Source of the DNA: Rhodococcus sp. W8901
GTDB lineage: Bacteria > Actinomycetota > Actinomycetes > Mycobacteriales > Mycobacteriaceae
Length of the DNA: 64,000 nt
Direction: 5' to 3'
NCBI RefSeq assembly: GCF_013348805.1
Contig: NZ_CP054690.1
Location: 1-64,000 of the forward strand
Of this stretch, positions 45,319 through 47,824 are shown piece after piece; positions within the stretch are counted from its first letter, which is position 1, and each line of letters begins with the position of its first letter. The notes beneath the pieces are model-generated. The model was not told the DNA's origin, searched no databases, and was given only the letters and a program-made list of their open reading frames with translations. Position numbers and translations under genes: made by a program.

Positions 45319-46920
45319 ATGGCATTCACACGTAGATCTTTCATGCAGGCGCTCGGCGTCACGGGTGGCGCGGGCTTGGCGTACGGGGCGATGTCCTCGA
45401 TCGGTCTGGCGCCGGCCACCGCGGCGACGCCGAGGCGCTTCCAGTCGCTGGCACCGGGTGACCTGGTCGGTTCGGTCGCGGGGGATCACTCGGTGGTGAT
45501 CCTCGGCGGCGGACCGGCGGGGCTGTGCGCTGCGTACGAGATGCGCAAGGCCGGGTACAAGGTGACCGTGCTCGAGGCGCGGACCCGGCCCGGTGGCCGC
45601 GTGTGGTCGGTGCGGGCCGGTACCGAGGAGACGGATCTGGGCGGCGAGACCCAGAAGTGCACGTTCTCCGAGGGCCACTTCTTCAACCTCGGCGCGACCC
45701 GCATCCCGCAGGGGCACATCACCCTCGACTACTGCCGCGAGTTGGGCGTCGAGTTGCAGATCTTCGGCAACCAGAACGCCAACACGATGATCAACTACAC
45801 GGGCAGCCGGCCGCTGGCCGGCCAGTCCATCACCTACCGGGCGGCGAAGGCCGACACCTTCGGGTACATGTCCGAACTGCTGCAGAAGGCCACCAACCAG
45901 GGCGCGCTCGACGACGTCCTCACCAAGGGGGACAAGGACGCACTCTCGGAGTTCCTCACCAGCTTCGGTGATCTGTCCGACGACGGTCGCTATCTCGGTT
46001 CGCCGCGCCGCGGCTACGACACCGAGCCCGGCGCCGGTCTCAACTTCGGCACGCAGAAGCAGCCGTTCGGGATGCAGGACGTCATCCAGAGCGGCATCGG
46101 CCGCAACTTCGCGTTCGACTTCGAGTACGACCAGGCGATGACGATGCTGACTCCGGTGGGCGGCATGGACCGCATCTACTACCGCTTCGCGGAGGAAATC
46201 GGCGACAGCCTCGTCTACGGTGCGGAGGTCACGTCGATGAAGAACGCCCCGGACGGCGTGACGGTGGAGTACAGCGTCGGCGGGCAGCGCAGGTCCGTCA
46301 CCGCGGAGTACGCGATCTGCACCATCCCGCCGCACCTGATCGAGCGGCTCGACAACAACCTGCCGTCCGAGATCATCACCGCGCTGCGGGCCGCGAAGCC
46401 GTCGTCGTCGGGCAAGCTCGGCATCGAGTACTCCCGCCGCTGGTGGGAGACCGAGGACCGCATCTACGGCGGTGCGTCGAACACCGACCGCGACATCTCG
46501 CAGATCATGTTCCCGTACGACCACTACAACTCCGACCGCGGCGTCGTGGTCGCGTACTACAGCTCGGGGCGACGCCAGCTCGGATTCGAGTCGCTCACGC
46601 ACCGGCAGCGTCTGGCGAAGGCGCTCGCCGAGGGCTCGGAGATCCACGGCGACAAGTACACCCGTGACATCTCGTCGTCGTTCTCCGGTTCGTGGCGGCG
46701 CACCAAGTACTCGGAGTCGGCGTGGGCGTCGTGGGCCGGGGCCGGGGACTCGCACGGTGGCATGGCCACGCCCGAGTACACCAAGCTGCTCGATCCGGTG
46801 GACCGGATCTACTTCGCGGGCGACCACCTGTCCAACGCCATCGCGTGGCAGCACGGCGCGTTCACGTCGGCCCGGGACGTCGTCACGAACATTCATCAGC
46901 GTGTGGCCCAGGCCGCCTGA
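45319..46920 (+). CDS. Tat-exported L-amino-acid oxidase (flavin amine oxidase family)
   Basis: Oxidises L-amino acids to imino acids with release of hydrogen peroxide. 533 residues: a twin-arginine signal ([12 protein letters not shown], residues 3-14, then a hydrophobic stretch and ATAA near 35), the FAD-binding [20 protein letters not shown] near 58 with [11 protein letters not shown], and the C-terminal FAD motif [19 protein letters not shown] near 495. Length and motifs resemble the Rhodococcus opacus L-amino-acid oxidase. It heads an operon with a RidA lipoprotein and a TatA paralogue. A folded, cofactor-loaded secreted enzyme is the classic Tat substrate. Confidence 0.88.
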
Positions 46921-46949
46921 ATTCCAGTCACATTCGCAGAGGAGCCACC

Positions 46950-47624
46950 ATGAAATCCGTTGCCCGCAAGACCTTCGCCGCCACCCTCGCCGCGTCGGCG
47001 CTGCTCGTCACGGCGACCGCGTGCTCGTCCGACACCGCCGAGGCCGAGACCACACCCGGGAGCACCTTCGTTTCCAAGTCGGTTCTCGAAGTGGGAGAGG
47101 CGAATCCGATGATCGCGCAGGGTGTCGCGATAGGCGCGAACACTGCGGTCTACAAGACCAGCGGCATCGGACCCTCCGCGTCCGACAAGTCGGCGCCCGA
47201 GGGCACCCCCGAGTCGTACATCGACAGCCAGTTCGGCGGGGGAGTGCTCCCCGCCGGTGTGACGGTCACCGAGGCGCAGGGCATAGGCGTGCTCGAGAAG
47301 ATTCGCGACAATCTCGAAGCCCAGGGACTGACGCTCGAAGACGTCGTCACGATGCGGGTGTTCCTCGACAACGCCCCCGGCACCGACCGGGCCGACTACG
47401 CCGGCTGGAACCGCGCGTACCGCCAGTTCTTCGCCAACACCAACCTCGAGACCGGCGACACCGTGCTGGTCCCGATGGGCACCGCGGCGCCCGCCGCGCC
47501 GATCGAACGGAACAGCGCCCGCCCCACCCGGTTCGCGCTCGAGGTCGGGACGCTGCCGGTGGCGGGCTGGCTCGTCGAGGTCGAGGTGGACGCCGTCTAC
47601 CCCGACGGCAAGGAGCCGTCCTGA
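46950..47624 (+). CDS. RidA-family (YjgF/YER057c) lipoprotein
   Basis: RidA proteins hydrolyse reactive enamines and imines to keto acids and ammonia. 224 residues: signal peptide with lipobox-like ending TATAC (Cys25), then a full RidA-like domain with [10 protein letters not shown] near 132 and the C-terminal [13 protein letters not shown], where Arg194 corresponds to the conserved catalytic arginine. RidA is normally cytoplasmic and about 130 residues; an exported lipoprotein form is unusual and places imine clearance beside the exported oxidase upstream. AGAGGAG precedes the ATG. The stop shares one base with tatA. Confidence 0.82.
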
Positions 47625-47824
47625 TGGGCGCGCTGAGCCCGGGGCACTGGGCGATCGTGGCGGTGGTCCTGCTGGTGCTGTTCGGGTCGAAGAAGCTGCC
47701 CGACGCCGCCCGCGGCCTGGGCCGGTCGCTGCGCATCCTCAAGAGCGAGGTCGGTGAGTTGCAGGCCGACGACCAGTCGACCGAGGTCGGGGCACCGGAA
47801 TCCGCGAAGCGCCTGTCGGCGTAG
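47624..47824 (+). CDS. tatA: TatA-type twin-arginine translocase subunit (paralogue)
   Basis: 66 residues with the TatA layout: short N-terminus MGALSPGHW, membrane helix ([12 protein letters not shown]), hinge FGSKKLPD, amphipathic helix [16 protein letters not shown] and a charged tail. Actinobacteria usually carry the housekeeping tatA beside tatC, so a copy in an oxidase operon is probably an additional one. It overlaps the RidA stop (TGATG). A strong terminator follows. Confidence 0.88.

Follow-up and report, generated by a model that had tools for sequence, protein, structure and literature searches.

A conserved operon of Rhodococcus sp. W8901 combining an L-amino-acid oxidase, a Rid protein with a predicted export signal and a second TatA

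An operon of an oxidase, a Rid protein and a TatA

In this work we analyzed a 64,000-nucleotide stretch of DNA from Rhodococcus sp. W8901 (positions 1 to 64,000 of contig NZ_CP054690.1; hereafter, the window) and focused on a putative operon of three consecutive genes on its plus strand. They encode an L-amino-acid oxidase (LAAO), a protein of the RidA family and TatA, a component of the twin-arginine translocation (Tat) system (Table 1). The LAAO and RidA genes are separated by 29 bases, and the RidA and TatA genes overlap by one base (a gap of -1, with TGATG at the junction). This gene order, the gaps and the family names, as proposed in a first-pass annotation made by a model from the sequence alone, agree with the coordinates and with the Pfam and NCBIfam scores.

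Table 1. Features of the operon and of its divergent neighbors in the window
Feature	Position	Strand	Basis
L-amino-acid oxidase (R. opacus type), 533 amino acids	45319..46920	+	Pfam Amino_oxidase; phmmer match to 2JAE
Predicted Tat signal peptide of the oxidase, residues 1-45	45319..45453	+	Twin-arginine motif; start of the 2JAE chain
Predicted lipoprotein of the RidA/Ribonuc_L-PSP family, 224 amino acids	46950..47624	+	PF01042; PDB relatives 9bka and 9bkc; adjacency to the oxidase gene
Predicted lipoprotein signal of RidA ending at Cys25 (codon 47022-47024; ...LVTATAC25SS)	46950..47024	+	Invariance of Cys25; lipobox
Codon of RidA Arg194, presumed equivalent of the catalytic Arg	47529..47531	+	Invariant in 42/42; aligned with an Arg of 9bka
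TatA paralogue, 66 amino acids, translation overlap TGATG with ridA	47624..47824	+	NF001854
Amino-acid permease (APC type), divergent	43617..45104	-	Pfam AA_permease_2 and AA_permease; conserved
IclR-family regulator, downstream of the permease gene	42880..43617	-	Pfam IclR_C and HTH_IclR; conserved
Inverted pair TGAGA (45173-45177) / TCTCA (45204-45208), candidate operator	45173..45208	.	Alignment of upstream regions

The operon was compared with two sets of loci. The family set comprises 41 loci (L044-L084) fetched from a sample of 301 family genomes, which were taken from a larger group. The named-genome set (L086-L165) was obtained by a scan with two peptide patterns and comprises the best 80 of 95 loci. 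The strains of the two sets overlap, and their counts were not summed.

The product of the first gene matched the Pfam Amino_oxidase model with 153.6 bits (cut-off 19.8). In a phmmer search its residues 47-533 were aligned with residues 2-489 of the crystallized R. opacus LAAO (RoLAAO; PDB 2JAE) at E=4.2e-282, so that the full mature chain is covered, as expected for orthologs. In the R. opacus locus L064, where the same RidA and TatA genes come after the LAAO gene, the encoded LAAO is identical to 2JAE across all 489 residues. Thus, the well-studied crystallized enzyme belongs to this operon. In the R. opacus precursor, residue 46 is the first of the crystal chain, which would fit the loss of a 45-residue signal. 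Judged by orthology, the window protein is an oxidase of the RoLAAO type, with predicted activity on L-amino acids. A twin-arginine motif near its N-terminus, combined with a hydrophobic stretch, marks it as a predicted Tat substrate. The motif [ST]RRx[FLWVMI], which bears out the twin-arginine signal proposed earlier, was revealed in each of the 41 family-set LAAOs, counting that of the window, as well as in all 68 same-strand and all 10 opposite-strand LAAOs of the named-genome set.

The second protein matched the Pfam model Ribonuc_L-PSP (PF01042) with 43.8 bits (cut-off 27.3) and can be assigned to this family. At the same time, all named NCBIfam Rid models failed by far (RutC, 25.9 bits vs. 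a cut-off of 169.1; TIGR00004, 24.7 vs. 106.25; PRK11401, 21.9 vs. 222), indicating a divergent Rid protein rather than a canonical RidA. Among solved structures, two relatives were found by sequence, the Rid family proteins PSPTO3006 (9bka) and PFL1385 (9bkc), which, going by their tags, we take to be from Pseudomonas. Arg194 is invariant in all 42 RidAs of the family genomes, is aligned with an Arg of 9bka and presumably occupies the position of the catalytic Arg of RidA. The importance of an Arg residue for RidA catalysis has been reported (PMC4433059, part of which was available).

Cys25, for which lipidation had been suggested in the first-pass annotation, is likewise invariant in 42/42 RidAs. 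A PS51257-like lipobox pattern matched 41 of the 42, so that the protein is a predicted lipoprotein. The ten other RidAs of the same genome contained no lipobox at any candidate start and no signal peptide detectable by inspection.

Conservation of the gene set

Relatives of the RidA were found in 42 of the 301 family genomes (own genome included), and LAAO was found in the same 42. The LAAO gene is located directly upstream of the RidA gene in 40 of the 41 fetched relatives; in the remaining one (genome G251, locus L059) the RidA gene lies at a contig end, and two fragments located on other contigs match LAAO. TatA is encoded directly downstream of RidA in 31/41 relatives, and the -1 overlap is present in 30 of these 31. 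Therefore, the set is not a peculiarity of a single strain, and a chance neighborhood can be rejected because the gene order is conserved across relatives. It should be mentioned that in L059 and L095, both of R. jostii NBRC 16295, the RidA reading frame passes its usual stop into tatA near the contig end.

The LAAO and RidA genes are adjacent in 78 of the 80 named-genome loci, the other two being contig ends. In 68 loci both lie on one strand, separated by -4 to 110 bases, and in 10 loci (Cellulosimicrobium and one Sphaerisporangium record) they are divergent, the distance between their starts being about 356-403 bases. An export-type RidA N-terminus was revealed in all 80 loci, in 79 by hydrophobicity and in the last one (L105) by its lipobox. 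The lipobox is characteristic of the first 39 loci, belonging to Rhodococcus, Prescottella, Rhodococcoides, Nocardia and Pseudonocardia. In the remaining loci, from Kribbella, Mumia, Arthrobacter, Nocardioides, Micromonospora, Actinoplanes, Cellulosimicrobium and other genera, the signal is of the Sec (general secretory) type by inspection; two Kribbella RidAs also match the lipobox pattern, probably by chance. Thus, the predicted export signal of RidA is kept across relatives even where its type shifts from lipoprotein to Sec.

To extend the survey to other phyla, we searched plasmids with tblastn. In total 36 records were obtained and 24 were examined, the other 12 coming from genera already covered; a neighboring Rid was called at E up to 1e-4 with five query Rids. 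A Rid gene was found beside the LAAO gene in 10 of the 24 loci, of which one (Nonomuraea) is actinobacterial. All nine neighboring Rids with a complete N-terminus bear an export-type signal, as judged by inspection and hydrophobicity, which is of the Sec type in Alphaproteobacteria and a Metabacillus and of the lipoprotein type in a Comamonas.

For the Comamonas RidA (L171, 5141-5707) the annotated start is at 5249, which hides the export signal, while an earlier start at 5141 has a likely ribosome-binding site and opens a lipoprotein signal. The plasmid of Sulfitobacter sp. W074 (L209, 2989-5080) contains the module in decay, with the LAAO annotated in pieces and the Rid frame lacking a start.

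Where proteobacterial sets are annotated and include RidA, the LAAO and RidA genes flank a cytochrome c gene. On four Deinococcus plasmids (L170, L202, L205, L207) a cytochrome c gene lies upstream of the LAAO gene and no Rid match was found, so the oxidase may also occur there in a cytochrome-linked form. A cytochrome-linked operon of the proteobacterial kind was rejected for the window, where LAAO, RidA and TatA are directly consecutive: no cytochrome c gene was found in the operon or among the neighbors scanned with Pfam (permease, IclR, MarR and MFS genes), and the locus thus differs from the lao-cccA-ridA arrangement.

The operon TatA

The third protein matched the Pfam model TatA_B_E with 62.3 bits (cut-off 21) and passed two TatA models, NF001854 of NCBIfam (95.6 vs. 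72) and TIGR01411 (56.8 vs. 53.9). Its assignment as TatB is not favored, since its 24.5 bits with the tatB model TIGR01410 stay below the cut-off of 56.5. The genome contains two PF02416 matches, the operon TatA and a housekeeping tatA situated directly upstream of the only tatC. The possibility that the operon gene is the sole tatA of the genome is thereby rejected, and the additional tatA near tatC expected in the first-pass annotation was indeed found. Overall, that interpretation is supported: of the three findings it had named as capable of overturning it, two (a set confined to this strain and a single tatA) did not hold.

We compared 32 operon TatAs with 21 housekeeping TatAs, the latter being that of the own genome and 20 fetched sequences, all of which (20/20) adjoin tatC. 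The two groups differ consistently at positions 7, 18, 39, 44 and 48. In particular, position 7 is Trp in the operon type and Ser, Ala, Thr or Gly in the housekeeping type, while position 44 is Lys in the former and Gly (once Ser) in the latter. The operon TatAs are also shorter (55-79 vs. 85-95 residues). They retain the FGSKKLP hinge (with one Lys to Arg replacement) and the beginning of the amphipathic helix. By these sequence features, the operon TatAs form a group distinct from the housekeeping TatAs.

Within the genus, two TatAs are present in each of the five operon-carrying genomes and one in each of the nine that lack the operon. Among the family genomes, 31 of the 32 with an operon TatA encode at least two TatAs by a hand count, the exception being a genome that is 74% complete. 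On a tree of 54 LAAOs (midpoint root, bootstrap values not settled; the dissimilar TatA of Nocardia puris, L122, scored as present) the presence of TatA requires four changes, at least three of which are forced by well-supported branches. The TatA is therefore an old yet optional part of the operon. Five of the 10 relatives without an operon TatA carry a second TatA elsewhere.

A different arrangement was found on one Metabacillus plasmid, where the genes follow in the order LAAO, Rid (with the Sec-type signal mentioned above), tatA and tatC. Apparently, this is a second, independent gathering of Tat genes with an LAAO cargo. Tat genes beside a cargo gene are also known from Bacillus subtilis (phoD-tatAd-tatCd). 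The Campylobacter paralogues TatA1 and TatA2 differ in substrate preference (PMC4148689, available in part). These systems share with the operon a paralogous Tat component associated with certain cargo, whereas here TatA alone has been added and TatC is the single housekeeping copy.

Tat sets unrelated to LAAO were also observed in the family. In four of the five genomes mentioned above that lack the operon TatA but carry a second TatA, this tatA lies between the gene of a dioxygenase-family protein and a second tatC, with TatC recognized by Pfam in 4/4 (minus strand; L222, 644-2670; L220, 662-2708; L221, 653-2734; L219, 599-2800). The dioxygenase-family protein has a twin-arginine signal in L220-L222. 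Thus, cargo-linked Tat genes recur in the family.

Possible function of the module and alternatives

Taken together, these data suggest that the locus is probably a co-regulated module for the oxidation of L-amino acids at the outer face of the cytoplasmic membrane. LAAO would be loaded with flavin adenine dinucleotide (FAD), folded and then exported by Tat. Once outside, it would convert external L-amino acids to imino acids with the release of H2O2. RidA would be exported by Sec, lipidated at Cys25 and retained at the membrane surface, where it could hasten the conversion of imino acids to 2-oxo acids and ammonium before they react with amines or diffuse back. The operon TatA, made together with its cargo, may join the single housekeeping TatC and add to or tune translocation for this cargo. 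Through the divergent permease and IclR regulator, the module would be tied to amino-acid availability.

Several observations weigh against this proposal or parts of it. Simple imines hydrolyze without an enzyme, and it is not obvious why a RidA would be needed outside. Export signals were called from patterns, hydrophobicity and inspection, and a stricter actinobacterial lipobox pattern matched just 23 of the 42 RidAs. The crude hydrophobicity test is imperfect: it is passed by two signal-less RidAs of the own genome, L010 (at one of its starts) and L014, and narrowly failed by the exported-type RidA L074. No Rid match was found alongside LAAO in 14 of the 24 plasmid loci. TatA is not beside the LAAO and RidA genes in 10/41 relatives and so is not strictly needed; by a hand count, 48 of the 259 family genomes without the LAAO operon also have at least two TatAs, and carrying more than one TatA is thus not specific to LAAO. 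Finally, R. opacus LAAO produced with its native signal in Streptomyces lividans is tabulated as cytoplasmic in the available part of PMC7468451. This location could reflect the absence of a matching TatA, and in this way the operon TatA may bear on the behavior of RoLAAO in the Streptomyces host.

It is quite possible, if somewhat doubtful, that the operon TatA is a generic spare that raises the overall Tat capacity whenever the operon is on and has no preference for LAAO. The operon and housekeeping TatAs are closely similar over residues 1-49, and the relatives lacking the operon TatA have the same LAAO and RidA. Against a generic role stand the fixed place of the gene in the operon, its long-kept separate group with consistent differences at the five positions given above, and the separate Tat pair that accompanies the same cargo in Metabacillus.

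RidA, in turn, could be a subunit or anchor that tethers or stabilizes the LAAO dimer at the membrane, in the manner reported for the small subunit of the periplasmic oxidase complex in Chlamydomonas. That extracytoplasmic LAAO/RidA complex, with a non-catalytic RidA, is quoted in PMC5053998 (available in part); LAAO and RidA co-occur tightly, and the RidA of the operon has about 22 extra residues ahead of Arg194 relative to 9bka. Nevertheless, we consider this role unlikely, since the invariance of the presumed catalytic Arg194 and of many nearby residues fits retained catalysis, and in many relatives RidA has a Sec signal instead of a membrane anchor. Equally improbable is that the module serves mainly to produce surface hydrogen peroxide as a weapon or signal, with nitrogen gain secondary: the broad substrate range of RoLAAO (PMC4699246), the antibacterial role proposed for bacterial LAAOs (PMC6149928; both sources available in part) and the lack of a cytochrome c gene among the Pfam-scanned neighbors, unlike in the proteobacterial sets, are in its favor, while the conserved permease and IclR genes and the presumably co-exported imine hydrolase seem to fit nutrition better.

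To our knowledge, work on RidA proteins has dealt almost entirely with protection against imines in the cytoplasm. Rid genes are known to cluster with genes of FAD-dependent amine oxidases, and in vitro Salmonella RidA hydrolyzes imines produced by snake-venom LAAO (PMC4433059, as far as available); no word starting with secreted, extracellular, periplasm or signal occurs in the main text of that paper. The pathway described in the available part of PMC9537276 is also cytoplasmic. Among the closest known systems is the lao-cccA-ridA cluster of Gluconacetobacter diazotrophicus, a probable operon that likewise unites genes for RidA and for an LAAO bearing a Tat-type signal (PMC5053998). It contains a cytochrome c gene and no tatA, and its RidA is not described as exported in the accessible text, whereas the actinobacterial module has the permease and IclR genes and, in most fetched Rhodococcus relatives, TatA. 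The Chlamydomonas proteins LAO1 and LAO2 (RidA) are drawn in the periplasm, outside the plasma membrane (PMC10805672, available in part). This pair resembles the module in the proposed location of both proteins but is eukaryotic, has no Tat part and is not a bacterial lipoprotein system.

The R. opacus enzyme itself, in the literature available in part, has been treated without RidA, TatA or its location as a module. Our search for RoLAAO together with RidA in Rhodococcus found only the Gluconacetobacter work, and none together with tatA. For bacteria, no further report of an exported RidA was found in literature that covered few subscription papers. The view of the first-pass annotation that an external RidA has rarely been considered has to be qualified by the Chlamydomonas precedent. 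In summary, no report was found for a bacterial exported Rid class, a lipoprotein form of Rid or a cargo-linked TatA of this kind, while the LAAO-RidA pairing is already precedented, even outside the cytoplasm.

It can be tentatively hypothesized that LAAO and an exported Rid form a widespread unit of extracytoplasmic amino-acid oxidation, which in some lineages has captured a Tat part of its own, either TatA alone with a shared TatC (Rhodococcus, Prescottella) or a TatA-TatC pair (Metabacillus). If so, the addition of TatA alone would suffice to specialize Tat for one cargo, and an entire class of Rid proteins would act outside the cytoplasm. The conserved set, predicted to act outside the membrane, suggests that chemistry usually studied inside cells also occurs at the cell surface in many bacteria. 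Since the putatively exported Rid class is conserved and the oxidase is structurally solved, external imine chemistry is directly testable with existing reagents. The cargo-linked TatA, for its part, offers a natural case for deciding whether TatA, or only TatBC, contributes to cargo choice.

The divergent neighbors of the operon were identified from their Pfam scores, 35.1 bits for AA_permease_2 and 29.5 bits for AA_permease in the permease, and 50.9 bits for IclR_C and 44.6 bits for HTH_IclR in the regulator. Both had been noted in the first-pass annotation, and both are kept in 40 of the 41 fetched family relatives, the sole exception being a contig end. In the named-genome set they are present in 37 of the 80 loci, all within the first 39, where the two gaps are contig-end loci. 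The inverted pair TGAGA/TCTCA, a candidate operator, is located between the divergent genes. Across 41 aligned upstream regions, that of the window among them, conservation on the left side is at least 95% for GAGA and at least 85% for the T of this arm; on the right side it is at least 95% for TTC and C, at least 85% for the fourth T and at least 70% for the last A. Part of this conservation may result from kinship alone. On the other side of the operon, at 47894-49987 of the window, we observed a MarR regulator gene and a divergent gene of a major facilitator superfamily (MFS) transporter, which occupy the same place in only four of the 41 relatives (L044-L047).

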